From Lysobacterales bacterium (GTDB lineage Bacteria; Pseudomonadota; Gammaproteobacteria; Xanthomonadales; SZUA-36), in the NCBI GenBank assembly GCA_013002505.1, contig JABDJL010000017.1, positions 1-61,479 of the forward strand: DNA of 61,479 nucleotides, written 5' to 3'. The position numbers and the translations under genes are program-made. Under the pieces are notes generated by a model. It ran no database searches. It saw only the letters and a program-made list of their open reading frames with translations, and was not told where the DNA came from. How positions within the stretch are numbered: the stretch's first letter is position 1; each line of letters opens with the position of its first letter. Below, in pieces: positions 34,073-52,883 of the stretch.

Positions 34073-34117
34073 CTGTCAGATTTAACAGTGTGTATTCATT
34101 AACTGAACATCTATATT
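34073..34117 (+). promoter_or_regulatory. Palindrome-activated promoter for the CheY/CheC pair
   Basis: CTGTCAGATTTAACAG (34073-34088) followed after 23 bp by TATATT (34112-34117). The palindrome covers the -35 region, as expected for an activator bound about 43 bp before the start of transcription. The leader would be about 110 bases and can fold a GGTCGG/CCGACC hairpin (34159-34176). Confidence 0.65.
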
Positions 34118-34233
34118 GCTATTCAGGCTCGTTTTCCAGCCAGTACACAAAGGGCCGGGGTCGGCATCTTCCGACCGGGCCAGGCAGGCTCTGGAACGAG
34201 GGGACATGGAAGCACAATCAAAGGGGTGCAGAT

Positions 34234-34596
34234 GTGGCAAAGATTCTAATCGTGGATGATTCTGCTTTTGCCAGAAACACACTGAGCAGGATTGTCGAGC
34301 ATGGCGGCCACGAGGTCGTTGGACGTGCGGAAAACGGCTCGGAAGCAATGGCGCTTTTCAAGAGCCGCAACCCCGAACTGGTCACTCTCGATTACCTGAT
34401 GGAAGGACAAAATGGCGACGATGTGCTTGATGAAATCATGCAACACGACTCAAGCGCAAAAGTCATTATGATCTCCGGATCTGGTGATCATGCAATAGGA
34501 GCAAGGGCGCTCGAGGGCGGCGCGAAGTTCTTCCTGGAAAAGCCCCTCGTGTTCAGGGACATATTGAAAGTGATCGACCAGGTGATGGTCGCCTGA
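34234..34596 (+). CDS. CheY-like single-domain response regulator
   Basis: The GTG at 34234, with AAGGGGT 7 bp upstream, gives a 120-residue receiver domain: acidic pair VDDS (8-9), phosphoacceptor Asp53 in TLDYLM, Ser81 in ISGSG, and Lys103 in EKPL. There is no output domain, so it should act by protein contact like CheY. The next gene encodes a CheC/CheX-like phosphatase, its probable antagonist. The leader contains several GGA triplets (for example in ACATGGAAGC), possible CsrA sites. No flagellar or Che kinase gene is nearby; a pilus-directed role is plausible. Confidence 0.9.
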   Translation: MAKILIVDDSAFARNTLSRIVEHGGHEVVGRAENGSEAMALFKSRNPELVTLDYLMEGQNGDDVLDEIMQHDSSAKVIMISGSGDHAIGARALEGGAKFFLEKPLVFRDILKVIDQVMVA

Positions 34597-34643
34597 GATG
34601 CAACCATCCAAACGACAGCGAAAGATTACAGGGGATTCGTGAC

Positions 34644-35384
34644 TTGATTACCAACCAACTATCATTGAACGAGGAACAGGTCAGTTCCTTTGCCCGGTTC
34701 CTGATGGAAGGTTCAGATGCCGCATTGCACGCATTGCAGAACCTGTTTGGCCTGGACATCGACAGTGCAGATGCCAGTATTGAAATCACGCCTGCGCTGA
34801 GCCCCGACTACGTCAACAACCTGGGTGACCAGACCTTGTACACGGTTTCCAGCGCCATGGTGGGCGAATTGCAGGGCAGCATGTTGCTTCTGATGCGCTC
34901 CGAAGACTTCCAAAGCCTGGGCGATTTGATGCGCCCGGTACTGAGCCTGTTGTTTATGTCCGGTGAAGAACCACAACAGGAATCACCGGACAATCATCGT
35001 GCGGGCAGGACCCAGGCCACAAATCCTGGTACCGATAGCGATACGGAGTTTCGAGCCCAGATGCTCGATGTGCTGACCGAGATGGGCAACGTCCTCATCG
35101 GACTGTACACCAAGGCCATTTACAATATCTATTCACTGAATACGCATCATTCCATACCGCTGGTCTGCACTGATGAGAGCCAGGAAACAATTCGACGGTT
35201 TCTGACGGCAAAGCAACCGCCTGACCAGATGCACCTGGTCATTGAAAATGAGTTTACGACCATGGACCACACCATCACGCTCTGGTGCCTGATTTCACCA
35301 TCCAGTGAGTCTTTCAACAGCATCTTGAATTGCATTGAAAACCATGAAGAACTCTTCAGTCACCCTGTTGGGCAAGCGCATTGA
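34644..35384 (+). CDS. CheC/CheX-like CheY-P phosphatase
   Basis: Starts at TTG 34644, 9 bp after AGGGG; no ATG or GTG fits in frame. The 246-residue protein has two CheC-like halves. The second holds DVLTEMGNVLIGLYTKAI (about residues 145-162) with the Glu-x-x-Asn pair that attacks the acyl-phosphate; the first (LMEGSDAALHALQNLFGLDI) has lost it. A weakly conserved Gln/Asn-rich linker joins them. Such proteins dephosphorylate CheY. Pairing with the single-domain regulator 47 bp upstream supports this. Confidence 0.75.
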   Translation: MITNQLSLNEEQVSSFARFLMEGSDAALHALQNLFGLDIDSADASIEITPALSPDYVNNLGDQTLYTVSSAMVGELQGSMLLLMRSEDFQSLGDLMRPVLSLLFMSGEEPQQESPDNHRAGRTQATNPGTDSDTEFRAQMLDVLTEMGNVLIGLYTKAIYNIYSLNTHHSIPLVCTDESQETIRRFLTAKQPPDQMHLVIENEFTTMDHTITLWCLISPSSESFNSILNCIENHEELFSHPVGQAH

Positions 35385-35885
35385 TAATTGGCGACAGGGT
35401 ATAAATTCTCGTTAAATCAAACAATTGTTGAAACAAGAAATTTGTCATTCATTTTCGCAACGGTTAGGTGTATGCTACGCGGACAAATCTAAAGTTATGT
35501 GAATCGCTATCTTGATGGGATTAATACCGCGCCGCAGGCGGTTACAAACCCAGGGATCAGGACCAGTAGCCACCGAGCAAGCGCTACACATACAATCCTC
35601 GTTTGGAAACTCCGAGGCGGCAGCCTGTTTCTTCAGTGTTCTGCCCTCACAGTGCCATTCCCGCCCGTTTCAATTACGCACGGTTGTTCCTCTGCAATCG
35701 GCCCCAGGGCGCTTAAAGCCTGTCCGACTGCCTTCTCATCACTGGCACCCCAAACACATAAATGCGGCAACCCAAAGTCAGCCATTTCCCACCATGGATG
35801 ATTTATTTGGCTGAATGGATATTTCCGGCAGGCTGAGACCTGCTGCCGATCAAATTTTGTGTTTTTGAAAACACGAGGAAAACTT
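35385..35885 (+). other. Intergenic stretch without recognisable gene
   Basis: About 500 bp between the CheC-like gene and the next regulator gene. Possible frames of about 100 codons (35499-35814) resemble no protein I know and have poor starts. A 10-bp palindrome AACAATTGTT lies at 35420-35429 and a TATGCT at 35471 could be a -10 element. I found no copy of the CTGTCA palindrome here. Confidence 0.5.
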
Positions 35886-36779: not shown

Positions 36780-36863
36780 CGAAAGACATAGCTATTCCAT
36801 GCACCATTAAACCTTTGCCATTCAGGAAACGCGCTTCGGTACTGCCTGTTTTTTAAAGGAAAC

Positions 36864-36907
36864 CTGTCAAATCCTACAGTAGGAATAGCGCGCAGCCTTC
36901 TTATAAT
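36864..36907 (+). promoter_or_regulatory. Palindrome-activated promoter for the nuclease gene
   Basis: CTGTCAAATCCTACAG (36864-36879), 22 bp, then the perfect -10 TATAAT (36902-36907). The start of transcription would be near 36914, 25 bases before the GTG start codon. No -35 hexamer is seen apart from the palindrome. Confidence 0.7.
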
Positions 36908-36938
36908 TCACTATACCCGTTGCTGACCAAGGATTACT

Positions 36939-37517
36939 GTGAAACTGGCTCAGCCAATCCCCAAGGCTCGCGCTTTTATCCCAGGGCGGAAACTCAAGAC
37001 ATCGCTGGTAAGTGGCGTTTTGATTGCGATTGCCTTCGTGCTGTATACGCAATTTAACTTGCGCGCGGAGGCCGGCAAAGAAAAATACGATTACATCACC
37101 GGAAACGTATTGTCAGTGCTGGACGGCGACTCCATCAGATTCCAGGCCAGTCATGGAGATCTTACTATTGAATTGAGAGGTATTGACGCGCCGGAGCTGG
37201 GCCAGAAATTCGGCAAACACGCCCGTCACTACCTTTCAGAGCTGATCAACTCCAAAAAAGTCACTATTGCCATGAAAGCGGACGATCGTGACGGAATTTT
37301 GCGCGGTGAAATATTTCTCGACGGAGTCTCTATCAATAAACTCTTGTTAAAGGATGGATTCGCCTGGGCCCGGCGGGGGTCATCCGGAAACAGAAGCTGG
37401 ATTAGCATCGAGAAACAGGCCCGTGACCACAGATTTGGCTTGTGGCGTCAACACGATGCCATGGCGCCCTGGGAGTATCGTGAACTGGTTCTGGAAGGCG
37501 TTGGCGCTACCCCCTGA
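36939..37517 (+). CDS. Membrane-anchored or exported thermonuclease-like protein (SNase fold)
   Basis: GTG start at 36939 after AAGGATTACT. The 192-residue protein begins with one hydrophobic helix (about residues 24-38, SGVLIAIAFVLYTQF) followed by an SNase domain: VLDGDSIRF (metal Asp), ELRGIDAPELGQKFG (Arg and Glu of the active site), ILRGEIFLDGVSINKLL and DGFAWARR. Active-site residues appear complete. It likely acts in the periplasm or outside, on DNA or RNA. Its promoter carries the same palindrome as the pilus and signalling genes, suggesting a link to surface life or extracellular DNA. Confidence 0.85.
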   Translation: MKLAQPIPKARAFIPGRKLKTSLVSGVLIAIAFVLYTQFNLRAEAGKEKYDYITGNVLSVLDGDSIRFQASHGDLTIELRGIDAPELGQKFGKHARHYLSELINSKKVTIAMKADDRDGILRGEIFLDGVSINKLLLKDGFAWARRGSSGNRSWISIEKQARDHRFGLWRQHDAMAPWEYRELVLEGVGATP

Positions 37518-37582
37518 GCTCAAACAGGCCTGTACCCCACAGTAGCAGGGGATCTGGTTTCCGTATTATGTTCATTCCATGT

Positions 37583-37627
37583 CTGTCATTTTTGACAGAT
37601 GTATCAACCCATCGCGTGATGGATGAT
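37583..37627 (+). promoter_or_regulatory. Palindromic operator ahead of a GGA-rich intergenic region
   Basis: CTGTCATTTTTGACAG (37583-37598) is a perfect inverted repeat. GATGAT (37622-37627) lies 23 bp downstream, a weak -10 (4 of 6). The kinase start codon is over 300 bp away, so the transcript either has a long leader or is a separate small RNA. Confidence 0.55.
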
Positions 37628-37633
37628 TGTGTT

Positions 37634-37765
37634 GAGGATGAAACAGGAGAATGGAAACCAAGCAGGGAAGCAAACCGTCCCCCCAATGCATCCAATTTAA
37701 TCCTGGGATGGCGACCCCAACCGGCATTCAAGGTCAAGAAATCTGACCTTTGTGCCGGTGTTTCC
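37634..37765 (+). ncRNA. Candidate GGA-rich small RNA A (or long leader of the kinase gene)
   Basis: From the predicted start near 37634 there are five GGA triplets in 73 bases (37636, 37646, 37653, 37666, 37706), three in an ANGGA context if the -10 overlap at 37621 is counted. The stretch ends with a long hairpin: ACCGGCA (37720-37726) pairs with TGCCGGT (37753-37759) and AAGGTCA (37730-37736) pairs with TGACCTT (37744-37750), then GTTTCC. Density of GGA and a terminal hairpin recall CsrA/RsmA-binding RNAs. No good reading frame explains it. The tail is T-poor, so termination is uncertain. Confidence 0.4.
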
Positions 37766-37941
37766 ACGTCCAGATTATTGTTTGCTGCCCGATATTTCAG
37801 GTTAAATTTTCTGCATCAACAGCAAAAAACTGTGATGATGTAATAGATATCGTGTGTGGATAAAGTGATTGCTCATCAATCAGATGCGAAGAAGCAATTG
37901 CCAACACTGATCTGAACCATTGCAAATTGAGGGGTAAAGAA

Positions 37942-40900
37942 TTGGAATCTCGGGCTAAATTTGCCAAGCTGGACAAGGACGCCGAAATCAGCGAATTGCA
38001 TCGCGATCGGCACGACCGGAATGATCCAGCCGCAATATTGCCCCCCAATGACAACGACCTGTTTAGCCAGTTCGGAATGGCTTGGATGGCCATCACCCCG
38101 CAGGGAAATATTCTGGATTGCAACGATTTCTGCCTGAAACTCTTGGGCGAATCCCTTGACGTACTCAAGAAATCAAGCATTGATGATTTTATTGCCCCTG
38201 AATTCCTCGACCGGGTCAGGGAACGCAGAAAACGGCGAATTCGAGGCGAACAGGTTCCCAATAATCACGAATGCCGACTGAAGCTTGCCAGCGGCACTGA
38301 GCTGTGGGTCCGCGTGCGCACCTCGCTGCTGGAAGGGCAGGAGAAAACCGGGGGCATGATGGTCATACTCACGGACATCACCGACCAGAAACTGGCAGAA
38401 GCTGCCCTGCACAACAAGGAGCAGGAGTATGCGCGGCTGTTCGCAAGCTCCCAGACTGGCTACGTGGTTTCCGACGCTGACGCTCGTATTCTTGAATGTA
38501 ATGACTTATTTCTCGACTTCCTGGGGCAGAACAGGGATTCACTTGGCACATTGAGCTTGTGGGATTTTCTTGCTCCTGAGTGCATGGCTGACGCGAAAAA
38601 ACGCAATGCGCTCTATTTGCTGGGACACGAGGAAAGTCTTGATTATGAAATTCATTGCCTGCGTCCGGACGGCAGTGACGTTTGGCTGCAGGTTCACTCT
38701 GTCCCACAATATCGAGATGGAGAGTTGTCCGTCGTCGAGTCTTTGATGTGGGATGAAACCGATGCCAGAAACGCCCAACTTGAGCACACCAAGGAATCCG
38801 CCCGCGCCCAGAAAGCCGCAGATACCCTGAACGCAATATTCCGGTCATTGCCGGCCAACGTCCTGCTGTTGGACAAAACCGGAAGCATAGTTTCGATGAG
38901 CGATTCCTGGCAGGAATTGTCAAGTCAGCAGGGGCAAGCCATTCTCCTGGATTTCAAGATTGGCGATAACATACTGGAACTGTGCGATCTGGCCATTGGA
39001 CCGGGGGATGAGAATGCCAGGCTCTTGTCAGAAGGGATCAGGGGGATTCTGAGTCTTCAGCAGCCCAGGTTCGATTATCGCGGTAACTACTTCCTGGCCG
39101 GCGAACAGCGCTGGTACGACATGGCGGTAACGCCGCTAATTCCGGGCAAGCGAGAGGGGGCCGTGCTTTTGTGTTACGAGACCACCCGGCAGCACCAGGA
39201 ACGAGAAGCCCTCAGGACGGCCCAGTTGCACCTGCAAGAAGTGGTTAATTCTACAGGCGGTATTCTCTGGGAAGCAGACCCCAAGACATTCAGGTTTACC
39301 TATGTCAGCGAGGCGGCTGAGCGCATTCTGGGCTACCCGGTCTCCATGTGGACAGATGACGTGGAATTCTGGGCCAGTCACATTCATGAGGATGACCGCC
39401 AATCAGCAGTCCGGTACTGCATGGAACACACTGCGCGCGGTGAGAACCACCGCTTCAGGTACCGCATGATCGCAGCGGATGGCCAGGTTGTGTGGATGGA
39501 AGACGTCGTCACCGTGATCTCCAGGGATGGAAAACCCGAATCATTGCGAGGCGTCATGGTGGATGTTTCTGCCGAGGTTGCTCAGCAAGAAACCCTTTCG
39601 CAGATCAGCACCACGCTTGACCTGAGCTTTAGTGAGATCTATATATTTGACAGTGATTCTCTAAAATTCAAGTACATAAACAATGGTGCATTGAGCAACC
39701 TGGGGTTCAGTTCCAGACAAATGCTAAGAATGACACCGATTGATATCAAACCAGATTACGAGGAAAACTCTTTCCGTAAGTTGCTGGAGCCCCTGAAGAA
39801 AGGCGAAGTGCCCAAACTGGTCTTTACGACCAAGCACCTTCGCGCTGACGGCAGCACGTATCCCTGCGAGGTGCATTTACACCACACGAAACACCAATCA
39901 AAAGATTCGTTCCTCGCCGTGGCCCTGGATATCAGCGAACGCAGAGACCAGGAGGAGTTTCACCAGTTATTACTCGAGAATGTCATTTCTGGCCTACTGC
40001 TGGTCGATATTGAAGGTGGCATTACCCTGGCCAACCGTTATATTCACGAAATGTTCGGATTTGACCAGGGCGAATTGGTTGGCAAGCCCATCGAAACGCT
40101 GGTGCCGATGAAATCACGCAAGGAACATGTAGCCCTTCGCAATGAGTACGTCAAGGATCTGAAGCCCATTCACATGGGGTCGCGCGAAGGCCTTCTCGGG
40201 CTGCGCAAGGACGGCACCGAGTTTCCGGTAGATATCGAAATCTCCCAAACCACCATCTCGGGAAAACCGTTCCTTTTGGTATGCGTCAGCGATCTGACCG
40301 ACCGGCTTGCAATCGAAGAAAAGGCTGCAAAATCTCTCGAAAAGTACGAGCGGGTAGTAGAGCACATGCACGACGCATTGCTGGTGGATGACCTCGAAGG
40401 GAGGGTGGTGTATTGCAATGATCGTTTCCTGGAGTACTTCGGCCTTGAACGTAAAGATGTCGAAAATTTGACCATGGACGATTACATCGCACCTGAGCAC
40501 CTTGAACGAATGCGCCAAAGCCATGCCCGGCGCGTCACTTCGGAAAGTGCAGCTGAAATTCAGGAGTTCGAAGGGGTGCGTAAGGACGGCAGCCGCTTAC
40601 ATTTGCAGGCCCGTACAACACCTGTGTTCAAAAAGGGTGAGTTATTTGGTACACAGTCAATATTGCTCGATATCACAGAGAGCAAGATCGTGGAAGAGGA
40701 GTTGCGCCGTGCGCAGATGCACATCGAGGAACTGATTGACGGTACCGAGGGTATTGTCTGGGAAAGCAAGCCTGGATCGATGCGCTTTTCATATATCAGC
40801 AAGCAGGCTGAAAGACTGCTCGGTTACCCTGTTGAGCGCTGGCTCAACGAACCAAACTTCTGGCGTGACCATATACACCCCTATGACCGGAGCATGGTGG

Positions 40901-41790
40901 TTCGTGAATATGGCAAGGAAGGACAGCAGGACAGTTCACACAGAATTGAGTATCGCATGATTGCGGCCGACGACTCTATCGTCTGGCTGGATGACCAGGT
41001 CAGCGTGATTTACCAGGACGGGGAACCCGTCGTGTTGCGCGGCATCATGGTTGATATCACTGAGCGCAAGACACTCATGGAGGCACTACGAAACCTGAGC
41101 CAAAGAGAGGGTGCCCTGGTGGAAAATGAGCGACGACGAATTGCACAGGAACTACATGATGATTACAGCCAGCGAATGGCTCTTGTGGCCCTGCGTTTGC
41201 AAACACTCGGACGTGAGTTACCCGAGAGCTTTAGCCACCAACAACAAACGCTGGAAGAGCTTTGGTCTGACACCAAGCTATTGTCGACGGATTTACATAA
41301 CCTGGCTTATGAACTGGCGCCTACATCACTGAGGCAGATGGGGCTGCAAGGCGCGATCTCCAATCTTTGCGACAAGTATTACAAGCACCACTCGCTGCCC
41401 GTGGATTTCGTTTTCAGTAACCTGCCCAAACTGTTGTCAGAAACCAAGGCAATTGCGCTTTACCGAATCGTCCAGGAAGCATTAAATAATGTACGCAAAC
41501 ACAGTAATTCGGATGATGCGACAGTCCAGCTGACCGGGGTGGATGGAAACCTGGAGCTGATCATTTCCGATTCAGGAGAGGGGTTTGACACCACCCGCAA
41601 CGCGCACACCCATAATCTCGGTTTGATGGGAATGGCAGAACGAGCGTACATGGTAGGCGGAACCTGGTCAGTCACCAGTCATCCGGACCAGGGCACCACC
41701 ATCAAGGTCGTCATCCCCTTGCCCGCGTCACCCGCTTCTGAAACCCCCGAAAACCCTCAAACGGAAACGACTGGTCATGATGAAAAATAG
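37942..41790 (+). CDS. Soluble sensor histidine kinase with eight PAS domains
   Basis: The TTG at 37942 is preferred over one at 37927 because AGGGG (37930-37934) sits 7 bp before it. The 1282 residues hold eight PAS domains starting near residues 44, 165, 299, 433, 560, 675, 804 and 929, then a HisKA_3 dimerisation domain with phospho-His1072 (RRRIAQELHDDYSQR) and an HATPase domain (N box about 1179, DSGEGFD about 1209, LGLMGMAERA). PAS 4 and 8 (GILWEAD, GIVWESK) and PAS 1 and 7 (DDFIAPE, DDYIAPE) look like duplicated pairs. No transmembrane helix is present, so it senses intracellular cues. The partner regulator gene overlaps its end by 14 bp. Confidence 0.93.
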   Translation: MESRAKFAKLDKDAEISELHRDRHDRNDPAAILPPNDNDLFSQFGMAWMAITPQGNILDCNDFCLKLLGESLDVLKKSSIDDFIAPEFLDRVRERRKRRIRGEQVPNNHECRLKLASGTELWVRVRTSLLEGQEKTGGMMVILTDITDQKLAEAALHNKEQEYARLFASSQTGYVVSDADARILECNDLFLDFLGQNRDSLGTLSLWDFLAPECMADAKKRNALYLLGHEESLDYEIHCLRPDGSDVWLQVHSVPQYRDGELSVVESLMWDETDARNAQLEHTKESARAQKAADTLNAIFRSLPANVLLLDKTGSIVSMSDSWQELSSQQGQAILLDFKIGDNILELCDLAIGPGDENARLLSEGIRGILSLQQPRFDYRGNYFLAGEQRWYDMAVTPLIPGKREGAVLLCYETTRQHQEREALRTAQLHLQEVVNSTGGILWEADPKTFRFTYVSEAAERILGYPVSMWTDDVEFWASHIHEDDRQSAVRYCMEHTARGENHRFRYRMIAADGQVVWMEDVVTVISRDGKPESLRGVMVDVSAEVAQQETLSQISTTLDLSFSEIYIFDSDSLKFKYINNGALSNLGFSSRQMLRMTPIDIKPDYEENSFRKLLEPLKKGEVPKLVFTTKHLRADGSTYPCEVHLHHTKHQSKDSFLAVALDISERRDQEEFHQLLLENVISGLLLVDIEGGITLANRYIHEMFGFDQGELVGKPIETLVPMKSRKEHVALRNEYVKDLKPIHMGSREGLLGLRKDGTEFPVDIEISQTTISGKPFLLVCVSDLTDRLAIEEKAAKSLEKYERVVEHMHDALLVDDLEGRVVYCNDRFLEYFGLERKDVENLTMDDYIAPEHLERMRQSHARRVTSESAAEIQEFEGVRKDGSRLHLQARTTPVFKKGELFGTQSILLDITESKIVEEELRRAQMHIEELIDGTEGIVWESKPGSMRFSYISKQAERLLGYPVERWLNEPNFWRDHIHPYDRSMVVREYGKEGQQDSSHRIEYRMIAADDSIVWLDDQVSVIYQDGEPVVLRGIMVDITERKTLMEALRNLSQREGALVENERRRIAQELHDDYSQRMALVALRLQTLGRELPESFSHQQQTLEELWSDTKLLSTDLHNLAYELAPTSLRQMGLQGAISNLCDKYYKHHSLPVDFVFSNLPKLLSETKAIALYRIVQEALNNVRKHSNSDDATVQLTGVDGNLELIISDSGEGFDTTRNAHTHNLGLMGMAERAYMVGGTWSVTSHPDQGTTIKVVIPLPASPASETPENPQTETTGHDEK

Positions 41791-42424
41791 CCTAAATCGA
41801 GTATTGCTGGCGGACGATCATGCGATGCTGCTGGATGCGTTCCGCAAACTGCTGGAACCGCATTTTGAGGTCGTGGGTACCGCAAAAGATGGGCGGGAAC
41901 TGGTGAAGCTCGCTTCAAAATTGAAACCTGATGTCATCGTTACGGATATCTCGATGCCGCTATTGAATGGGCTCGACGCCGCGGCGAAGATCAAAAAGCT
42001 GCAACCGGATATCAAGTTGGTCTTTGTTACGGTCAACGAGGATCCGGACCTGGTCGCCGAGTCGTTTCGAATCGGCGGCAACGGTTACTTGCTCAAGAGC
42101 TCTGCCGCGTCGGAATTGTTCAAAGCCATCGAAGTGGTGATTGGCGGGGGCAAGTATGTCACTCCCCTGATTACCGGCGCCATGATCGGTTCGTTGCTGC
42201 GCGACCCGACCGAACGCAGTCAGCAACATGTGCTGACGACCCGCCAGCGAGAGATCCTGCAACTGCTGGCTGAAGGAAAAACCATGAAGGAGGCGGCCAA
42301 CATCCTGTGTGTGACCTCCAGGACGGTAGCATTTCACAAGTACCGGATCATGGAGGACCTGGGCATCAAGACCAACTCAGAGCTGATCCATTACGCCATC
42401 AAGCAGGGGCTAATTTCCATTTGA
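41777..42424 (+). CDS. NarL/LuxR-family response regulator
   Basis: The 215-residue protein has a receiver (LADDHAM acidic pair, phospho-Asp57 in VTDISMP, Thr in VFVTVNED, Lys in YLLKSS) and a LuxR-type helix-turn-helix (LTTRQREILQLLAEGKTMKEAA, recognition helix in TSRTVAFHKYRIMEDLG). It overlaps the kinase gene by 14 bp and is its evident partner. NarL/LuxR regulators bind short inverted repeats and often activate from just upstream of the -10, matching the CTGTCA-N4-TRACAG sites around it; I infer, without proof, that it is the protein that binds them. Confidence 0.95.
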   Translation: MMKNSLNRVLLADDHAMLLDAFRKLLEPHFEVVGTAKDGRELVKLASKLKPDVIVTDISMPLLNGLDAAAKIKKLQPDIKLVFVTVNEDPDLVAESFRIGGNGYLLKSSAASELFKAIEVVIGGGKYVTPLITGAMIGSLLRDPTERSQQHVLTTRQREILQLLAEGKTMKEAANILCVTSRTVAFHKYRIMEDLGIKTNSELIHYAIKQGLISI

Positions 42425-42451
42425 TTGTCAAGAAGTTATGCGGTTCAAATG

Positions 42452-42496
42452 CTGTCATTATTGACAGTGTCCAGGCCCCCTTATTTGTCGCATAAT
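42452..42496 (+). promoter_or_regulatory. Palindromic operator and promoter for candidate small RNA B
   Basis: CTGTCATTATTGACAG (42452-42467) is a perfect inverted repeat with the same arms as the copy at 37583. After 23 bp comes CATAAT (42491-42496), 5 of 6 to the consensus. It lies 27 bp after the response regulator stop and points into a region with no plus-strand gene. Confidence 0.7.
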
Positions 42497-42502
42497 AATG
42501 GT

Positions 42503-42655
42503 GTATTTCTGGTTGGGCGCAACTGAAAATACACTGGGACGAAGCAGGTCAACAAGGATGTTGAAACCGAGCGGCCACTTGAGTGAATACGCGCGTAGCG
42601 TGAAACCGGTATCTGGAACAAAGGGAGTTGGGCCATGATGCCGGTTTTGCTTTAT
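42503..42655 (+). ncRNA. Candidate Rsm-like small RNA B
   Basis: Downstream of the operator the sequence folds in three hairpins. The first begins at the predicted 5' end: GTGTATTT (42501-42508) with AAATACAC (42527-42534) and an inner GGTTG/CAACT stem. The second, CAACA-AGGA-TGTTG (42550-42563), puts GGA in the loop and contains ACAAGGATGT, the core of the published high-affinity CsrA ligand. The third, AAACCGGTATC (42603-42613) with GATGCCGGTTT (42637-42647), is followed by TGCTTTAT and resembles a terminator; its loop holds AAAGGGA. Four GGA triplets in all. The region converges with the MHYT gene, whose own terminator the last hairpin could be. A 61-codon frame from 42635 with AGGGAG upstream is an alternative, unrecognised product. 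Confidence 0.5.
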
Positions 42656-42746
42656 CCGGGCGCTTCCGACACCGTAACCCGCGCTTTTGTCATGACCAAA
42701 AAAATGGACCTTGCAGCCCATTTTTTCGGTATCAATTTTGCCTCAT

Positions 42747-44735
42747 TCAACCTGCGGTGGCCTTCCATTCTTCAACGTTGGTGGTGCTGGGAACCGCGCG
42801 CAGGGACCTCTCCGGAATGACTTCCCGCAACACGCCGACCATGTGCGTTGGGTTCCCTGCTTCGTCAAACATCAAGCCTCCAGCAGAATGCAGCAAGCGC
42901 GTGGTGGCGTCCGGCCAACATACCCGAAACTCCATGTCAAAAGGCACGCCGGCCAGGAGGCTATTCCTGAAGGCGGCTTTAATCGTAGGCCTGTCATCGG
43001 GGTGAATCAGCCTGATAAAACTCTCGAATTCGGCAGCCTCACTATGCGGCAGCCCGAGGTTTACCTGCACGTTCCCCGACCACTTTATTTCGCCGGTATC
43101 TATGATCCAGTCCCATGTCGCCATGTTGGCATAATTCAGGCTCGCCACCATGCGTTGGTTGTTTAACTCCCGGTTTATCGAGGCTACTTTTTGCTCATGG
43201 ATATCCACCCAGCAACCTACCAGCAGGCCGGGCCTGCCGCTTTCATCGCAAATGACATGGCGCGAGTCGGAAATCCAGCGATAACTTCCGTCGGGCGACT
43301 TGATCCTGTATTCAATCGTCTCCTTGAGCTTGTCGCGCAACAGCCAGCAATCCGCGCCAAAGCGATCGACATCATGCGGATGGACCAGGCCCGCCCAGAA
43401 TTCGGCAGTGGACGAGATTGACTCGGCAGAGTAGCCCAATAATTTCTTTGAATTGGGGCTGACATATACGAACGGCAGACCGTGGCTTACTTTACGCGTG
43501 TAGACCGTGCCTGGACTGACAGAAAGCAGTAACTCGAGTTTCTTTTCCAAACCTTTCAATTTCGATTCTGCTTGCTTGAGTGCGCTGTTCGGGCGAATCA
43601 CCGCGACAAACTCCAGGCCACTTCGGCGGCTAAGGGGTGATATGGCCAGCTCCGCGGAGAATTCTGTTCCGTCTGCCTTGCTAAATACCAGGTCATGCGG
43701 CCGATTGATTAGACTGCCCAACCCCGGGCCTGATGAGCTGATCTGCGACTTGTAGGTTTTCAAAATACGCAATGGCAGCAGGTTAAGACAATTCTCACCG
43801 ACAATCCTGACCGCGGGGTAGCCGAACATGTCTATGGCCGCTTGGTTCAGGCTTTTGATGGTACCAAAGCTGTCAGTTGTGATGACGCCCAGCGAGGAAT
43901 CCTCGAGGGCTGTCAGGGTTTCAGTCATACCTGATTCGACCATTTCTGTTATGGCAAATTGGTGACCCAGCCTGACTGCGAGGTACAACAACAGCGAAAA
44001 CGCCAGCACCGAGATGGCCACGACCCAGCTGGCCAAGCCCGGATCCTGTGTAAATCCGTAAACCGGCGTCCAGTCACTGTCTGACGGAAAAAAGTGAACT
44101 GACGACATGGCAATTTGTTGAACAGCCAGTGCCGCACTGCTGAAAATCAGCGAACAAAACAGCAGACCCGCCATCGAGGGCAGACGTTTACCCATGCTTG
44201 ACTGACAATGCCACCAGACCTGCAGTACCAGACCTGACAGTACAACCGCCGCAATCAGGGTAAGCACGCACCAGGACAGCGCGAGTTTTATTTCGGCATT
44301 AGGATGCAATGCAAAAATACCCGCGTACTGCATCACGCTCATGGCAAGACCCAGGATTCCATAAATGGCCCAGCGCCTGGTCAAGCTGAGCTCAGACCCT
44401 GATGTGACGCGCAACAGCAGGCCGGCGCCCACGACCGCCGGAACCAGGTACAGCAATGCGTACTCCGGATACAGGTTCGTTTCGACCGGCAACGAGAGGG
44501 CCAACAAGCCAATAAAGTACAGCAACCAGATACCTGCGCCCATGACCAGCGCGCCGGCCATCCACCAGGCATGCGCAAGCCAAGGAAGAAGTTTTCTGAC
44601 CCGGTACATGTGATGTGAAATTCTCAGCGCCAGGTAGATTGTCAGGGTAGCGACAATCAGTGATAGCAGGATGATTTGCAGATCAAATTGACCCTTATAG
44701 GCAGAACTCAGGTTTGCAAACTTCTCCAAAAACAT
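42747..44735 (-). CDS. Degenerate MHYT-like membrane sensor with three PAS domains and no output domain
   Basis: The start at 44735 is backed by GGGAGGGGAAC. The 662-residue protein has seven or so helices in the first 260 residues in the layout of the MHYT sensor domain, with three repeats around residues 71-80 (LLYFIGLLAL), 135-142 (MQYAGIFA) and 206-213 (QQIAMSSV). In true MHYT domains each repeat carries a Met-His metal pair; here every one of the three His is replaced (Tyr/Gln/Gln). Three PAS domains follow (starting about 275, 405, 530). Unlike classical MHYT proteins there is no GGDEF, EAL or kinase domain; the protein ends after PAS 3. Probably a sensor that signals by protein contact. 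Confidence 0.75.
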   Translation of the reverse strand: MFLEKFANLSSAYKGQFDLQIILLSLIVATLTIYLALRISHHMYRVRKLLPWLAHAWWMAGALVMGAGIWLLYFIGLLALSLPVETNLYPEYALLYLVPAVVGAGLLLRVTSGSELSLTRRWAIYGILGLAMSVMQYAGIFALHPNAEIKLALSWCVLTLIAAVVLSGLVLQVWWHCQSSMGKRLPSMAGLLFCSLIFSSAALAVQQIAMSSVHFFPSDSDWTPVYGFTQDPGLASWVVAISVLAFSLLLYLAVRLGHQFAITEMVESGMTETLTALEDSSLGVITTDSFGTIKSLNQAAIDMFGYPAVRIVGENCLNLLPLRILKTYKSQISSSGPGLGSLINRPHDLVFSKADGTEFSAELAISPLSRRSGLEFVAVIRPNSALKQAESKLKGLEKKLELLLSVSPGTVYTRKVSHGLPFVYVSPNSKKLLGYSAESISSTAEFWAGLVHPHDVDRFGADCWLLRDKLKETIEYRIKSPDGSYRWISDSRHVICDESGRPGLLVGCWVDIHEQKVASINRELNNQRMVASLNYANMATWDWIIDTGEIKWSGNVQVNLGLPHSEAAEFESFIRLIHPDDRPTIKAAFRNSLLAGVPFDMEFRVCWPDATTRLLHSAGGLMFDEAGNPTHMVGVLREVIPERSLRAVPSTTNVEEWKATAG

Positions 44736-44868
44736 GTTCCCCTCCCTGGCAAACATGAACTGAGCAACCTTAAGGTATTGCTCAATTACACCCCTAGAAC
44801 CGCATTGACGGCATCAATCATTCCTGATGGCAGCGCCGATCCATGCTTTCCATGTTCGTTGAATTGTC

Positions 44869-44934
44869 ATTTTGAATGTTGGGTGTGCGACAAACTAGGT
44901 TATTAATGACAGTTCTGACTGGTAAAATTGACAG
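44869..44934 (-). promoter_or_regulatory. Two CTGTCA-type elements upstream of the MHYT-like gene
   Basis: Reading the minus strand, CTGTCAATTTTACCAG (44934-44919) and the half-degenerate CTGTCATTAATAACCT (44912-44897) lie 6 bp apart. CAAAAT (44874-44869) is 22 bp beyond the second element, the same spacing as at other sites. The start of the MHYT gene is about 130 bases further on. The elements match the shared consensus less well than the others. Confidence 0.45.
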
Positions 44935-44980
44935 TTCCCCGATTGGACACGGGACGCGGTCAATGCAGTTTCGGCTGCCG

Positions 44981-45250: not shown

Positions 45251-45290
45251 CCTGTACGGTTTCCGCTTGTGTGAACTAAATTCCGCAAGA

Positions 45291-45680: not shown

Positions 45681-45734
45681 GCGCTCACCTGTTATGTTGA
45701 CGGCCAACGGGCCGTGCAGGGCTTATGGAATCGT

Positions 45735-47888
45735 TCACGGGCAGCTACTCGATTGTTTTACGATGGTCAGGTTGATGGTGGTATCTTCAGACAATCCACT
45801 GAAGGTCATGACCGTGACTTCACCCGGGATGCCCAGGTCGGGGTCCGCCATGACGCCATCGTCAAATACCTGCAAGCTGACATAGGCAGCATTATCGGTA
45901 CACACTTTCCGGTTCAACACCGTCACACTGTTGCCGGTCACTTTAAGGGCGTTGTAGTCCTTGACGGTCACGGTGCCACTGGCCGCCCCGCCGGAAAGCG
46001 CCAGGTCACAAACATATGCCTTCTGGGTGGAATTTCCGTCCACTATGGAAACAATTTCACAGTTGACGGCCGGCGGATCCTGGCTGACACGAACTGTTTC
46101 CACGTTGATCTGGTTCGCACCGGCATTGATGTCTCCGAGCACCAGAATGCCGGCGGCAGGCGGCGTTCCGCCAATATCCACCAAAACGGGATAATCCTCC
46201 GATTCTTCCGTCTCGTCGTCCGGGTCAATCGGGTTGGTATCGGTCAGGCCGGTATTGGAAGTTTCGATATCAGCGGTCACGTCCGTCGCCACGCTAAAAT
46301 GATCCTGGGACAACGAGACCGCGCCCCGGCTGAAGCTGTTCGAGGTGATGTCGCTGATCGGTGAATTGGTCACGGTAATTGCGCTCGACCCTTTGCTCCA
46401 GTTCGCAAGAGACGTGGTGTCAATGTCGAAAAATGGCAGAATCTCGAGCCATGGCGGATCTTTCAGGGTATTGCAATGGTCTTCGAACGGACCCGAGCCC
46501 CCGGCCTGCAGACACTTGATTTTCGCCAGCAGTTCATCTGTCAGGTAATCCACGTAAATACCGCGTGACATGGCTTGCTTGGTCACCCCGGCGTTGCCGA
46601 AGAACATGCCTGGTGCACTGGAACTGTAACTGCCGTCCGGTACAACGCCCGGGTAGGTTTCGGCATCAACTCCATTCATGAAACTTCCTACGAAGTTGAC
46701 CACCGAGCTGCTGTAGCTGGAATTGAAGTTGCTCGGAAAACTTGCAGAAACCACGTCCAGGTTTTCCAATGCCATGTCCGTCGTTAACCTGAAAAACCCG
46801 TCTTTCCTGATGTATCGACAGGCTTCCAGGTATTCATCGCCTTCAACCGCCAGCTCCTTGATGCCGTTGACGAGGCCGTAATGCGCATGATCGCCATAGA
46901 AATTGAAGCTGCCTGCGTCGCCGCTGAATGCCGGCCTGAACGGGTCATATGAATCCTCGGCAGAACTGCTGTCGTGGTGATCCCTGCAGCACATCTCGCA
47001 GGCAGCGGGCTGGCCCGCCTCGTCTGCAGAAACGCTCCCGGTTCGTTTACTGACCAATTCACCCAGAACGTACTCTTTTCCGTCCCAGACGGTCGGCTCC
47101 CGCCCTGTGCCGAGGCCCGAATTCAGCGTGCAGATGCAGTTGACTACCTTGAACTCTTCACGGCGCTGCAAATAAGCGTCGTCTTGAGACTGCAGGTAGG
47201 TGATGACATCAAATGATGTGATGACATTGACACCCTGGTTGACAATTTTGGGTTCCGGCGTGGTGGCACCCTTGAGTTTGTCATTGCCTATGGCCAACTC
47301 CACCACGCCGGGAAAATTCTGTGGGTTGAAAGTCGTCCGGGGTGGCAGATTGGAATCGACCCTGGCCATGATTCGCCCGGTGTTGAATATTGAAGTTGCG
47401 TCAATAACGTCCTGCAGTTCGAAATTGTGCGACGCGCCCTCGCCATCGGTCCAGCCGACATGTACCGTGACCATTTTCAAATCTGGTCTTACGCGGCCGC
47501 TGTTGCTCGAATATGGCTCGGTGCTGCCGTCGGCGTTCTGCGTGTAACCCGTAATCGTCCACGTAACATCGAGTTGCAAATTGCCCACTGTCACCGTGTT
47601 GGCCGATTCGCAGGATTCCAGGTCATCGAACCCTACCTGCAACACCGAGCACGCCGCGGCGCCCGTGTCGCCCATGGTGAAAAAGGAGTGCATGGTTTCG
47701 ATTTGCTGTTCCGCGACATTCATGGCGATCGTTCTTTGCTTGGCCACGGTGCTGTAGTTGGTGAGTTTTCCTTGCAGATTAGCCAACGCAGCCAGGCCAA
47801 TTGAGATGATCAGTACACTGATCATGACTTCGAGCAAGGTGAAGCCTGGTGCTGAACCTTGAGGATGATCAATCTGTAGGCTCTTCAT
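45735..47888 (-). CDS. pilV: Enlarged PilV-like minor pilin
   Basis: The N-terminus (GFTLLEVMISVLIISIGLAA after an unusually long 15-residue leader ending in Gly) is that of a PilV pre-pilin. PilV proteins are normally some 150-250 residues; this one has 717. The extra 500 residues contain a Cys-rich module (AACEMCCRDHHDSSSAE, about residues 292-308), Ser/Thr-rich beta segments, an acidic Asp/Glu linker (DPDDETEESED) and a late beta-domain. This is a candidate pilus-tip adhesin. No pilY1 gene is present in the operon, so this domain may take its place. Start 10 bp after the pilX stop. Confidence 0.85.
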   Translation of the reverse strand: MKSLQIDHPQGSAPGFTLLEVMISVLIISIGLAALANLQGKLTNYSTVAKQRTIAMNVAEQQIETMHSFFTMGDTGAAACSVLQVGFDDLESCESANTVTVGNLQLDVTWTITGYTQNADGSTEPYSSNSGRVRPDLKMVTVHVGWTDGEGASHNFELQDVIDATSIFNTGRIMARVDSNLPPRTTFNPQNFPGVVELAIGNDKLKGATTPEPKIVNQGVNVITSFDVITYLQSQDDAYLQRREEFKVVNCICTLNSGLGTGREPTVWDGKEYVLGELVSKRTGSVSADEAGQPAACEMCCRDHHDSSSAEDSYDPFRPAFSGDAGSFNFYGDHAHYGLVNGIKELAVEGDEYLEACRYIRKDGFFRLTTDMALENLDVVSASFPSNFNSSYSSSVVNFVGSFMNGVDAETYPGVVPDGSYSSSAPGMFFGNAGVTKQAMSRGIYVDYLTDELLAKIKCLQAGGSGPFEDHCNTLKDPPWLEILPFFDIDTTSLANWSKGSSAITVTNSPISDITSNSFSRGAVSLSQDHFSVATDVTADIETSNTGLTDTNPIDPDDETEESEDYPVLVDIGGTPPAAGILVLGDINAGANQINVETVRVSQDPPAVNCEIVSIVDGNSTQKAYVCDLALSGGAASGTVTVKDYNALKVTGNSVTVLNRKVCTDNAAYVSLQVFDDGVMADPDLGIPGEVTVMTFSGLSEDTTINLTIVKQSSSCP

Positions 47889-47898
47889 GGCGGCCGAT

Positions 47899-49467
47899 TC
47901 AGTTGAACGTGGACTGGTCAGACCAACTGCCGGCCAGGTTTCCGAGGATGATCAGCGGGTGTATCTTGCTGACGATGTCTTCAATGTAGACCACCGTGAA
48001 GCCACCATTAAAGATGGCGGCGCCCGGGTCGGTCATCACGGCCCCGTAAACGACGGGACCACCATTTAGAGAAGCCGGAATACTGTCAATCCCCTGTTCG
48101 CTGGCCGGGACGGTGGGGTCGGTAATAACCAGCACACCATAGAAAATCGAGTTTGAATTGAGCTTGACACCCTTGGCAGTGACCAGGGCCACCGGGCCCG
48201 TCGCCGAACCGACTTCCTTGCCCGACAGGTCGCAGTAGTTATCTGCCCAGACCAGCCCCGTCCAACTCGTATCCGCATCGCCGCAGTCCGTAACTACCAG
48301 GTCGGCGGCATCACGTACCAGTTGGTATTCGGTCCTGGCCACGCCGAAGTAATATTCAAATATGTCTTCCGGGTACAAAGGGTCTTCATCCACAACGTCG
48401 AAGAACTTGCGCGCAGGTTCCGTGCTCTGGGTGTGCGTCAGGGCACCCTGGTCTTCCTTGTCGGGGCATACACAGCTGTCGCAGGTGTTGTATTGAACAC
48501 CCTGGCTGTCTGTCCAGGCTCGCCAGGCCGATGGATTCTTGGTGTCCAGAAACTCCTCGATTTCGCAGGTGGCGACACTGCCGCTGCCCGATTCCTCGAT
48601 GAATACGTAGTTCCTGGACCAGATGGAAGTCGGTACCCCGACCCCGCCGGCATTCGGATTCACGACCACGTTGACGCTTCCATTCGGGGCGACCTGGTTA
48701 TACGTCATGATCGGCACGCTCGGCGGACCGCCACCTGGCTCAACGTTTGCAAGTGTCTGGGTAATGATGGTCTGTGCACTGCCATCGTCCGAGATGCCCG
48801 TCGAAACCAACCTGATTGCGAAATGAATTCCGGAAGGTGTGCCCGAGGCGTCACACTTGGCATAGGTATTCGGGTTTCCAGCCTCGAAAAAGTCCTGGTC
48901 GTAGTCCATGACGCACAGCAGGGCCTGGACCCGGTAATCGGTACTGTCTATTTGAACAGGAGGGTCTGAGTTATCGTACTTTCTGACCAATGAGGATATG
49001 GGCAGGAAGGTGTTGAGGGTTTCGGCGTCCGGATCCTCAACGTAATAGAACACGTTCTCACGACTGAAGCCGTCCGCTCTTCCGTCTGCAGCCAGGGAAG
49101 CCGCGGAGCATGGCAGTGTGACGTCATCGGCAGTACAGGGCAGCCAGTGCCTGTCCGACCCCGCGCCCTGCAACCAGCCGCCCGTGTCAGCAGAGCTGAT
49201 ATTGCGCAAATTTCGGGAGAAAAAGCGCATGGCGTGGCTCAGACCTGCTTCGGCAGCGTGTTGCGCCAGCTTTGCCCTGCGGTCATTGGCTGAGATGGCC
49301 TGCTCCACTGCAGTCATACGTGCATTGAAGAACAGCATGAGCGTCATCATGATCAGGATCATCATCACCAGCAGCAATGCAGCTCCCCTGGATTTCCGAG
49401 CTCCGGGTGCTGCAGCCGGGATGGTGCATTTTGTGCTGTTGGTCACTGGTGATTCCTGCTGATTCAA
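47899..49467 (-). CDS. pilX: Enlarged PilX-like minor pilin
   Basis: The 522-residue protein starts with RGAALLLVMMILIMMTLMLFF, a PilX-type hydrophobic segment without Glu5, after a long 26-residue leader. PilX is usually near 170-200 residues. The remaining part has a Cys-rich stretch (EYNTCDSCVCPDKED-like: QYNTCDSCVCPDKED, about residue 335) and a beta-rich C-terminal region. The start overlaps pilW by 4 bp (ATGA). Together with PilV it makes the tip complex of this system unusually large. Confidence 0.85.
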   Translation of the reverse strand: MNQQESPVTNSTKCTIPAAAPGARKSRGAALLLVMMILIMMTLMLFFNARMTAVEQAISANDRRAKLAQHAAEAGLSHAMRFFSRNLRNISSADTGGWLQGAGSDRHWLPCTADDVTLPCSAASLAADGRADGFSRENVFYYVEDPDAETLNTFLPISSLVRKYDNSDPPVQIDSTDYRVQALLCVMDYDQDFFEAGNPNTYAKCDASGTPSGIHFAIRLVSTGISDDGSAQTIITQTLANVEPGGGPPSVPIMTYNQVAPNGSVNVVVNPNAGGVGVPTSIWSRNYVFIEESGSGSVATCEIEEFLDTKNPSAWRAWTDSQGVQYNTCDSCVCPDKEDQGALTHTQSTEPARKFFDVVDEDPLYPEDIFEYYFGVARTEYQLVRDAADLVVTDCGDADTSWTGLVWADNYCDLSGKEVGSATGPVALVTAKGVKLNSNSIFYGVLVITDPTVPASEQGIDSIPASLNGGPVVYGAVMTDPGAAIFNGGFTVVYIEDIVSKIHPLIILGNLAGSWSDQSTFN

Positions 49468-50147
49468 ATCCTCAAATATTGGTTCCTGAGTTGCACGGCG
49501 TTGCTCACTGTCCGGGTCGTGCCGGTGTCGGATCGCAGGTTGCCGCTGATGATGATGCTGACCTGCTCCAGTCCGACCTGGACCGTGTTGCCGGAAGCGA
49601 GATTTTCCGCGATGTCAGTCAGTTGATCCTGGTGTTCAAACTGCAGGGCCGATATGTTGGTCAGTTGAGGATCGGAAACGTCTACCCAGCCACTGTCATC
49701 AGCCGCAGTGGCGCAAGAGGCGGTCATACCGAAGTGGGCTGAAACCCTCCCCACGCCCGCAATCACGCGAAGCCGGTAAACAGCGTTCTTTTCATTGCCA
49801 TCCAGGTCCTGGTAACGCACGGCCAGGCAGTCGGCCCGCTCATTGGCATCGAGCGTGCCCATGGTGATCCCACTGGTGATGGACTGGGTCGTCAGGAATC
49901 CTGCCAGCGCATCATCGTTGTACCCGGAGCGGCGAATATCCCTGGATATCAGTTGCATTGATGAACGCAGTTCCTGGGTCAGCTGTATCATGTGAATGGA
50001 CCAGCTGTTGGCCTGGAAAACACCTGCTGCCAGGTAAATGGTAATAAACGAAACAATTATCATGATGAGCATGGAAATCATCAGCTCGATCAGCGTAAAA
50101 CCGCGCGGTGTGTGCCGCGATATGTATCCAAATTGCTTTAGCTGCAT
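49464..50147 (-). CDS. pilW: PilW-like minor pilin
   Basis: The 227-residue protein has a leader ending RHTPRG and the segment FTLIELMISMLIMIIVSFI, with Glu5. The body contains SSMQLISRDIRRSGYN, typical of PilW/GspJ-like proteins that follow the N-terminal helix. It overlaps fimT by 10 bp and pilX by 4 bp, so translation of the set is coupled. Confidence 0.92.
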   Translation of the reverse strand: MQLKQFGYISRHTPRGFTLIELMISMLIMIIVSFITIYLAAGVFQANSWSIHMIQLTQELRSSMQLISRDIRRSGYNDDALAGFLTTQSITSGITMGTLDANERADCLAVRYQDLDGNEKNAVYRLRVIAGVGRVSAHFGMTASCATAADDSGWVDVSDPQLTNISALQFEHQDQLTDIAENLASGNTVQVGLEQVSIIISGNLRSDTGTTRTVSNAVQLRNQYLRI

Positions 50148-50692
50148 GTGACGTAGCCCACCAGCTTGTGGTCAGAGGGCGTGCACTTCCTCACGCTGCC
50201 CGTGGCGTTGACGGTGACATTGACGCTGTAATCGTGATTCACGTGCTTGACGTCTATGGAGACGGAGTCCGACGGATCTGCCAATATCCCCCTCACCGGA
50301 TCAAACGTCACGGATCCGTCCACAAAGCTGGCCTGAATCTCACTGAAGTCCTGGAATGTCTGGCTGGACAACAGTGCAGGTTGAGAGTCGATTGTGCACT
50401 GCGCCGGCGCATCCATGCAGTCGCAGGGTGCGTCCTTTCCCGACGCGGCGCCAATGCACCAGCTATTGCCATCGTCTTCCGATTTGAAGGATATGGTCAC
50501 GAATTCACTGCGCTTGATGGATTCCATCTTGATGTTTTCGAAAAACACGCTGACCATGTTTGACGCACCAGCCACTTTTCGTTTGCTGATGAATCCTGAA
50601 TAGGATGGAGCTGAGAGGCCCATCATGATGGCAACCACGGCAACGGAGGTGACCAGTTCAACAAATGTAACGCCGCGTTGTTTGAAGTTCAT
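50138..50692 (-). CDS. fimT: FimT/GspH-family pseudopilin
   Basis: The 184-residue protein has the short leader MNFKQRG and VTFVELVTSVAVVAIMMGLS, then the GspH/FimT sequence SYSGFISKRKVAGASNMVSVF and a strand-rich C-terminal domain with four Cys (CIGAASGKDAPCDC, CTIDSQ, KCTPSDH, VTCS). It is first in the minor pilin operon and serves as an initiator of the pilus tip. A palindromic regulatory site lies about 160 bp upstream. Confidence 0.9.
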   Translation of the reverse strand: MNFKQRGVTFVELVTSVAVVAIMMGLSAPSYSGFISKRKVAGASNMVSVFFENIKMESIKRSEFVTISFKSEDDGNSWCIGAASGKDAPCDCMDAPAQCTIDSQPALLSSQTFQDFSEIQASFVDGSVTFDPVRGILADPSDSVSIDVKHVNHDYSVNVTVNATGSVRKCTPSDHKLVGYVTCS

Positions 50693-50821
50693 TTTGAATA
50701 CAATTCCTTTTGTTTTTCGCCCAGTCCTTGGGAGATATTCGCGCCGGTTTCACGCACCGGCCTGGTTGGTCTTTCGGGTTATCGCTCGCAGCAAATTCCG
50801 CCGAAAGTTTCCTGTATTTGA

Positions 50822-50865
50822 ATTTGAACTTCTGCCTCGATCCCGGCAACTGTTAAATCTGCCAG
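50822..50865 (-). promoter_or_regulatory. Palindromic operator ahead of the minor pilin operon
   Basis: On the minus strand CTGGCAGATTTAACAG (50865-50850) differs from the CheY site by one base. TCAAAT (50827-50822) follows at 22 bp, 4 of 6 to the -10 consensus. The leader to fimT would be about 125 bases. On the plus strand TACATT (50890) could serve a divergent transcript. Confidence 0.55.
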
Positions 50866-51018
50866 ACTCTCGAGAAAATATTACCGATCTACATTTATAA
50901 GCAGGACACTTACAATGACCGGGCATGACATGCTCTGGGTATTGTGCTAAAAATGTGCGCGCCAACATCGTCCGCTGTATGCTTGCGGTGAAGATGATAA
51001 GAATCAAACTGGTCTGAG

Positions 51019-51285
51019 CGATTTTTTTCGCCGGCAAGCAATTTAAGCCGGATTCGGCTTAAGTTATATGGACTGGAAACTTGGCAGTTCGCCCGAACTA
51101 AGAGGTATCAGAAAATTTTAATTGAGTTCTTCAAACAGCTTGCTTGCACTCACGAATTCAAGCGTGACGCCACCTTTCGTCAAACGAGCAAGGACGACCA
51201 CAAGGTGCAGTGGATCTGTCCAAAATGCAAACTGAAGAAAGTCAGGTTCCGCTGGGATCCGCCAAAGGGCGCGCAACCGGAATAA
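51019..51285 (+). CDS. Small zinc-ribbon-like open frame without a clear start
   Basis: An open frame ends at TAA 51283-51285 and encodes EFFKQLACTHEFKRD followed by VQWICPKCKLKKVRFRWDPP. The CxxH ... CxxC arrangement with basic residues looks like a small zinc ribbon of the kind frequent in phage and accessory genes. There is no in-frame ATG, GTG or TTG with Shine-Dalgarno; ATT at 51121 is one option. A -1 shift would join it to a short ATG frame at 51068 that stops at 51121, so a frameshifted remnant is equally likely. Confidence 0.3.
   Translation, partial: RFFSPASNLSRIRLKLYGLETWQFARTKRYQKILIEFFKQLACTHEFKRDATFRQTSKDDHKVQWICPKCKLKKVRFRWDPPKGAQPE
51040..51065. repeat. Inverted repeat in the pilus intergenic region
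   Basis: AATTTAAGCCG and CGGCTTAAGTT pair over 11 positions (one G-U in RNA) around the 4-base loop GATT. There is no T-tract following it on the plus strand; on the minus strand an A/T run begins 10 bp beyond. It may be a terminator or protein-binding site. Confidence 0.45.
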
Positions 51286-51523
51286 CACCGCACCTGCGCT
51301 CCAGGCGCGGCTGCAGGCTCCCTACCACTGATTATTGCAATAAGCCTTTAAAACCTTTCCTCCCGGCAATCACGCGCATGTAACTGGGCCATGGCAAGAA
51401 GCCTCCCCCCGGGTGTGCCGACTGTGCCACGCCCATTTGCCCGATCCCCCGCCCTGCACTCCTGCTGAATGAGAATTTGCCGCCTCGAAGCGCATCGCCG
51501 CTGTGGGTCTGCGTAGGCGAAAC

Positions 51524-51568
51524 CTGTTAAATCTAGCAGCAGATATATCGTCGCAGCTGGCGTATAAA
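51524..51568 (+). promoter_or_regulatory. Palindrome-activated promoter for the PilT-type ATPase pair
   Basis: CTGTTAAATCTAGCAG (51524-51539), 23 bp, then TATAAA (51563-51568). Transcription would start near 51575, about 73 bases before the GTG codon at 51648. The spacing is identical to that at 34073 and 42452. Confidence 0.65.
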
Positions 51569-52871: not shown

Positions 52872-52883
52872 CCGGAGTAAACC

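Follow-up and report, generated by a model that had tools for sequence, protein, structure and literature searches.

The DNA analysed here, a 61,479-base stretch of contig C32 (the window), comes from a Lysobacterales genome of 3.04 Mb in 196 contigs and has a G+C content of 57%. At 41777 it carries the gene for a NarL/FixJ-type response regulator, which overlaps by 14 bp the open reading frame (ORF) of a multi-PAS histidine kinase. Genes for further signalling proteins, a nuclease-domain protein, minor pilins and PilT/PilU-type ATPases lie around this pair (Table 1), and the palindrome CTGTCA-N4-TRACAG recurs among them. An earlier note on this DNA had listed eight such sites and proposed the regulator as their binder; the palindrome and that proposal are the subject of this report. 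Domains were called with Pfam and NCBIfam profiles and RNA families with Rfam covariance models.

Table 1. Features of the window in order of position; scores are those of the operator matrix described in the text.
Feature	Position	Strand	Context and support
Operator CTGTCAGATTTAACAG	34073..34088	+	Score 23.3; upstream of CheY-like receiver gene; -10 TATATT at 34112-34117
Stand-alone CheY-like receiver	34234..34596	+	120 aa from GTG (start inferred); Pfam Response_reg
Operator CTGTCAAATCCTACAG	36864..36879	+	Score 17.6; upstream of SNase-domain gene; -10 TATAAT at 36902-36907, spacing 22
Staphylococcal-nuclease-domain protein	36939..37517	+	Pfam SNase, 6e-16
Operator CTGTCATTTTTGACAG	37583..37598	+	Score 23.4, best in the window; upstream of kinase gene
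-10 hexamer GATGAT	37622..37627	+	23 nt past the 37583 operator
Kinase leader, first part GGA-rich (GAGGATGAAACAGGAGAATGGAAACC...CAGGGAAG)	37634..37926	+	Leader or second small RNA, weak
Multi-PAS HisKA_3 histidine kinase	37927..41790	+	Probable partner of the regulator; Pfam PAS, HisKA_3, HATPase_c
NarL/FixJ-type response regulator	41777..42424	+	Proposed binder; Pfam Response_reg (PF00072) and GerE (PF00196) above cut-off
Operator CTGTCATTATTGACAG	42452..42467	+	Score 22.8; 27 bp past the regulator stop codon
-10 hexamer CATAAT	42491..42496	+	23 nt past the 42452 operator
Candidate CsrA-binding small RNA (sRNA)	42503..42652	+	About 150 nt; predicted fold; terminator-like hairpin ACCGG...CCGGTTTTGCTTT
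MHYT + PAS membrane signalling protein	42747..44756	-	Pfam MHYT, PAS
Operator CTGTCAATTTTACCAG	44919..44934	-	Score 19.5; about 160 bp ahead of MHYT-PAS gene
Minor-pilin operon: GspH/FimT-like, N_methyl pilin, PilX_N, large N_methyl (PilV-like)	45735..50692	-	Pfam, NCBIfam
Operator CTGGCAGATTTAACAG	50850..50865	-	Score 19.1; about 158 bp ahead of minor-pilin operon; -10 TCAAAT at 50822-50827
Operator CTGTTAAATCTAGCAG	51524..51539	+	Score 16.2; upstream of second pilT/pilU-type pair; -10 TATAAA at 51563-51568
PilT/PilU-family ATPase pair	51648..53987 (51648-52871, 52884-53987)	+	TIGR01420

Palindromic sites and promoter geometry

Because the pattern had originally been picked after its sites were seen, we scored the window with a matrix trained solely on regulator-adjacent sites from other genomes, with the window sites excluded. 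Seven of the eight proposed sites proved to be the seven best positions in the window, in the order 37583, 34073, 42452, 44919, 50850, 36864 and 51524. Their scores run from 23.4 to 16.2, the eighth-best position scored 13.7, and a score of at least 16 was never reached in the 20 Markov-simulated windows that served as chance background. Exact copies stand at 34073, 37583 and 42452; those at 44919 and 50850 (listed as 44934 and 50865 in the earlier note) have one mismatch in the better orientation. The remaining proposal, at 44897-44912 (listed as 44912), scored only 8.5, a value that arises by chance about seven times per window, and it was therefore dropped as unsupported.

All seven supported sites lie outside convincing genes, and the ORFs that overlap sites (37568, 50750, 51348) either lack support from any family or are short antisense frames. 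Genome-wide counts were made by pattern searches over the contigs. The exact palindrome stands at four places in the genome, three of them inside the window (binomial p ~3e-5).

The distance of 22-23 bp from palindrome to -10 hexamer was likewise borne out, being 23 nt at 34073, 37583, 42452 and 51524 and 22 nt at 36864 and 50850. Among 21 sites from many genomes, oriented by their neighbouring genes, the -10 score peaks at 23 nt alone, and the alignment has A at position 24 in 17 of 21 sites and T at position 28 in 16 of 21. Sites from the relatives only give the same 23-nt peak (z = 6.2), and the spacing is thus independent of the sites first chosen; Acidobacteria sites have the same preferred spacing. 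A degenerate -35-like hexamer (consensus T-A-G-A-C) abuts the palindrome, 17 bp from the -10. In class II promoters the operator overlaps or abuts the -35 element at a constant distance, and this is the arrangement found in the sequence. These results support a palindrome centred near -43 next to a poor -35, the layout of class II activation. The class II position suggested in the earlier note therefore stands, although its proposal that the palindrome takes the place of the -35 is too simple.

The regulator, its recognition helix and the probable pilus targets

Several lines of evidence connect the palindrome to the 41777 regulator. Lysobacterales, Acidobacteria and Nitrospira have orthologues of the regulator, at 44-66% identity, and the palindrome goes with them; in most of the Lysobacterales it sits a short distance downstream of the regulator gene, as it does at 42452. 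The relatives of the window's genome carry the label Lysobacterales or Gammaproteobacteria. Of the family genomes, the 15 that encode the regulator hold 11 exact palindromes in all, and the 22 that lack it hold one. A looser pattern of operator plus -10 did not separate genomes that have the regulator from those that lack it and was dropped. Three genomes with no close regulator orthologue (G006, G017 and G024) nonetheless hold 17-20 CTG-N10-CAG plus -10 patterns, compared with 0-4 in the control. A suspected kinase beside the regulator of another genome, G004, was rejected when its ORF proved to be a hydantoinase.

The site also tracks one residue of the recognition helix, which reads RTVAFHKYRIM in the 41777 regulator. 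Linkage was scored as a matrix site within 1.5 kb of the regulator gene. Regulators with the Ala helix (RT[VI]AFHK), drawn from Lysobacterales, Acidobacteria and Nitrospira, have such a site in 28 of 40 cases, a count that includes the Lysobacterales training sites, whereas none of the 25 regulators with the Glu helix (RTVEFHK), and none of the 38 of all Glu types, has one. Over all non-AF helix types the count is 1 of 42 (Fisher 2e-11 against the AF type), and that sole case is an AYHK variant that still has Ala. The contrast between Ala and Glu persists in the Acidobacteria when the Lysobacterales are left out. When inverted repeats were enumerated with no prior motif, CTGTCA-N4-TGACAG was the commonest in RT[VI]AFHK loci (13 of 38) and was not among the top inverted repeats of RTVEFHK loci; nothing convincing was found as a matching palindrome near Glu-type regulators. 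The alanine in question, Ala185, aligns with Lys188 of NarL, a residue that contacts bases when NarL is bound to DNA.

The genome's fourth exact palindrome (contig C13, positions 1501-1516 of locus L114) is found 360 bp away from a paralogous regulator gene, before a gene for a 7TMR-DISM protein. This paralogue is 60% identical to the 41777 regulator, shares its recognition helix to the letter and possibly binds the palindrome as well.

Conservation before pilus genes points the same way. The orthologue of the fimT-like gene in G035 (L162, 54% identity) has a site about 160 bp upstream, as in the window. Upstream sites were also found at pilT-like orthologues in G033 and G036 and, weakly, in G035 (loci including L132 and L133), and at two more PilT/PilU-type genes in G001 and G015. 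The genome has a second PilT/PilU paralogue pair on contig C189. The more distant pilT-like paralogues mostly lack a site; none was found at the remaining pilT-like paralogue loci examined, which include the presumed housekeeping genes. Thus the site is kept before orthologues, as the earlier note had asked to see, and a receiver-like reading frame also follows a site in L193. The note's broader claim that every target is surface signalling or pilus does not hold: the 42452 site is followed by non-coding sequence, the 37583 site by a GGA-rich leader ahead of the kinase gene, and the 36864 site by the nuclease-domain gene. In Acidobacteria and Nitrospira the operator has other neighbours again (phosphoketolase, Ysc84, DUF4136, DUF2252 and kinases), which indicates that it belongs to the regulator and not to pili. 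Together, the linkage, the paralogue, the helix correlation and the conservation before pilus orthologues, all drawn from sequence, suggest that the palindrome is almost certainly the operator of the 41777 regulator.

Two further features of the window were noted. The last gene of the minor-pilin operon (45735-47888) is unusually large, at 717 aa, has a prepilin N-terminus and possibly encodes a pilus-tip adhesin. Two long ORFs of 839 and 1019 aa at 28382-33951 have no Pfam match at 0.001.

Candidate CsrA-binding RNAs

The 42452 site faces no credible gene, and is followed instead by a terminator-ended, GGA-containing non-coding stretch. Behind regulator-adjacent sites in the Lysobacterales the sequence is likewise non-coding, rich in A(N)GGA and often terminator-ended. 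A(N)GGA is the motif bound by CsrA (PMC5338858), and csrA is present in the genome of the window. We counted ANGGA pooled over sites and compared the counts with dinucleotide shuffles: 12 regulator-adjacent sites have 39 against 15.3 in the shuffles (z = 6.5), and seven other sites picked by the palindrome alone have 25 against 10.2 (z = 5.1). Plain GGA counts compared with base-composition shuffles are modest per site, and it was the stricter ANGGA, pooled, that proved decisive. Loops closed by stems of at least 5 bp contain GGA 14 times versus 5, and AGGA hairpins recur, such as GGCAAGGATGCC, TGCAAGGATGCA and TCAACAAGGATGTTGA. These hairpins were selected for pairing, and variation in their stems was therefore not counted as evidence of covariation.

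Several of the non-coding stretches, that of the window included, finish in terminator-like hairpins. G015 has three related GGA-rich copies, one of them close to csrA, and G011 has two. Peptide similarity among the copies falls in several frames, which argues for relatedness at the DNA level rather than for one coding frame. Searches with Rfam covariance models, including those of the known Csr/Rsm families, gave no match to the non-coding stretches. Antagonists of the Csr/Rsm type are short and terminator-ended, with several A(N)GGA of which some lie in loops, and the set of relatives shows this combination. Given their abundance of A(N)GGA motifs, several of them within hairpin loops, and their frequent terminators, the Lysobacterales RNAs behind the regulator probably sequester CsrA. 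Two loci of G015 (L191 and L192) are related GGA-rich candidate sRNA genes, and the other end of L192 has a group II intron match.

Related systems, alternatives and a proposed circuit

The circuit looks like a Gac/Rsm-like system that has a regulator, an operator and RNAs to itself, standing beside a separate GacA-like regulator. With BarA-UvrY, GacS-GacA and LetS-LetA it shares a NarL-family regulator, a palindromic operator and GGA-rich sRNAs that antagonise CsrA (PMC4682653; PMC5338858), the parts here being predicted. Unlike Gac/Rsm, it would have direct pilus targets, and its RNA gene lies directly behind the regulator gene. The UvrY repeat in csrB is at about -183 (PMC4682653), whereas CTGTCA-N4-TGACAG is at about -43 here. 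Membership of the regulator in the UvrY/SirA/GacA family was rejected, since it scores 129 bits against the NF007018 cut-off of 280, a UvrY-like protein elsewhere in the same genome (C104:78399) scores 222 bits and is closer to UvrY/GacA, and no TGTAAG-N6-CTTACA box was found within 300 bp of the candidate RNAs, where the best matches have 4-5 mismatches. RsmU of Xanthomonas, in the same order, is likewise an RsmA-binding sRNA outside the known families (PMC7694677), binding being a prediction for the RNAs described here. RsmU is processed from the comEA 3' untranslated region (PMC7694677), whereas these RNAs would have a regulated promoter of their own. The best-scoring named model for the regulator is MctR (NCBIfam NF052445), which has the same domain architecture, but the score of 152 is half the cut-off of 300.

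Lux and las boxes have the symmetry CTG-N10-CAG and a class II position, and the palindrome, near -43, could by that resemblance be the box of an acyl-homoserine-lactone (AHL) LuxR receptor. The same palindrome does stand ahead of a luxI-type gene in the relative G039 (L112), and the motif alone therefore does not identify its binder; the tandem palindromes at 1485-1516 and 2263 of that locus, before the autoinducer-synthase gene, are probably true lux boxes. Lux and las boxes are bound by AHL-binding receptors, whereas the binder proposed here has a phosphoreceiver instead. The site follows this receiver-type regulator and one residue of its helix, no autoinducer-synthase domain was found among the window genes scanned, and no Autoind_bind domain was found in the genome, which is about 93% complete. 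With no AHL-binding domain found the lux-box explanation fails, and we consider it very improbable. That a short palindrome merely clusters here by chance or through repeats, a natural suspicion for a pattern chosen with its sites in view, has next to no likelihood: it is refuted by the independent matrix, the fixed -10 spacing, the intergenic placement and the conservation. The lux box, the GacA box and chance clustering were thus all considered and rejected.

A different main binder, be it the C13 paralogue or some factor not linked to 41777, seems improbable. The identical helix of the paralogue and the exact site beside its gene favour it, but none of the seven window sites is more than 10 kb from the 41777 gene, and in other genomes the site directly follows orthologues of that gene; shared binding is quite possible. 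A less remote alternative, which we still regard as unlikely, accepts operator and regulator and takes the non-coding stretch for a GGA-rich leader or spacer rather than a CsrA-binding RNA. The lack of any Rfam match, the weak motif counts of the window copy and the few GGA in the relatives L033 and L005 fit this explanation. Against it stand the enrichment of ANGGA at two disjoint sets of sites, the placement in hairpin loops, the terminators, the multiple copies in G015 and a peptide similarity that is not confined to a single frame.

The reading that we prefer, at a probability of roughly 0.78, is that the palindrome is the operator of the 41777 regulator and serves class II activation of pilus and signalling genes and, in the Lysobacterales, of CsrA-sequestering RNAs. 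Some observations count against it. The sites at 36864 and 51524 each have two mismatches, and no good -10 was found 23 nt from the 44919 site. About 30% of the Ala-type loci have no site within 1.5 kb, an example being L010 of G033, on a short contig. The window's own sRNA candidate has just 2 ANGGA (1.0 expected) and one good hairpin, TCAACA-AGGA-TGTTGA at about 42549-42564, so the sRNA claim rests on the family of relatives. The kinase leader has six GGA, and with 2 ANGGA versus 1.0 its enrichment is not clear. Acidobacteria sites show no GGA enrichment, which would confine the RNA arm to the Lysobacterales group.

In the circuit that we propose, the multi-PAS kinase encoded just upstream would phosphorylate the regulator, and the phosphorylated dimer would bind CTGTCA-N4-TGACAG centred about 43 bp before the transcription start, beside the poor -35, and recruit sigma-70 polymerase to the -10 located 23 nt downstream. 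It would directly activate the minor-pilin operon, the accessory PilT/PilU pair, the gene of its own kinase and those of the receiver and the nuclease, and would also drive the non-coding RNA directly 3' of its own gene. By sequestering CsrA, the Lysobacterales RNAs would couple direct control of the pilus to the CsrA regulon.

A literature search for the operator in several spellings, with subscription papers outside its coverage, found no paper describing it. What is new here is the regulator-adjacent site of the Lysobacterales that faces A(N)GGA-rich non-coding sequence resembling CsrA-sequestering sRNAs. More broadly, there is about an even chance that the regulator represents an undescribed subfamily, spread over at least three phyla, with one operator, one promoter geometry and an Ala/Glu helix signature, and that in the Lysobacterales relatives it has joined GacA as a driver of CsrA-sequestering sRNAs, the RNA gene lying directly behind the regulator gene and the one switch also governing type IV pilus genes. 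How NarL-type regulators select their DNA could readily be tested with the operator and the Ala/Glu split, also in cultivable Acidobacteria; Granulicella sp. L60 and Acidobacterium sp. S8 are cultivable bacteria that carry the regulator. CsrA-antagonist sRNAs of gamma-proteobacteria have been attributed to UvrY/GacA orthologues (PMC4682653), and in Xanthomonas, with none of the known CsrB/Rsm-type RNAs found, RsmU was described instead (PMC7694677). If our reading is true, a second regulator-operator pair for CsrA-antagonist RNAs and pilus genes would be a missing Csr/Rsm branch in this order.

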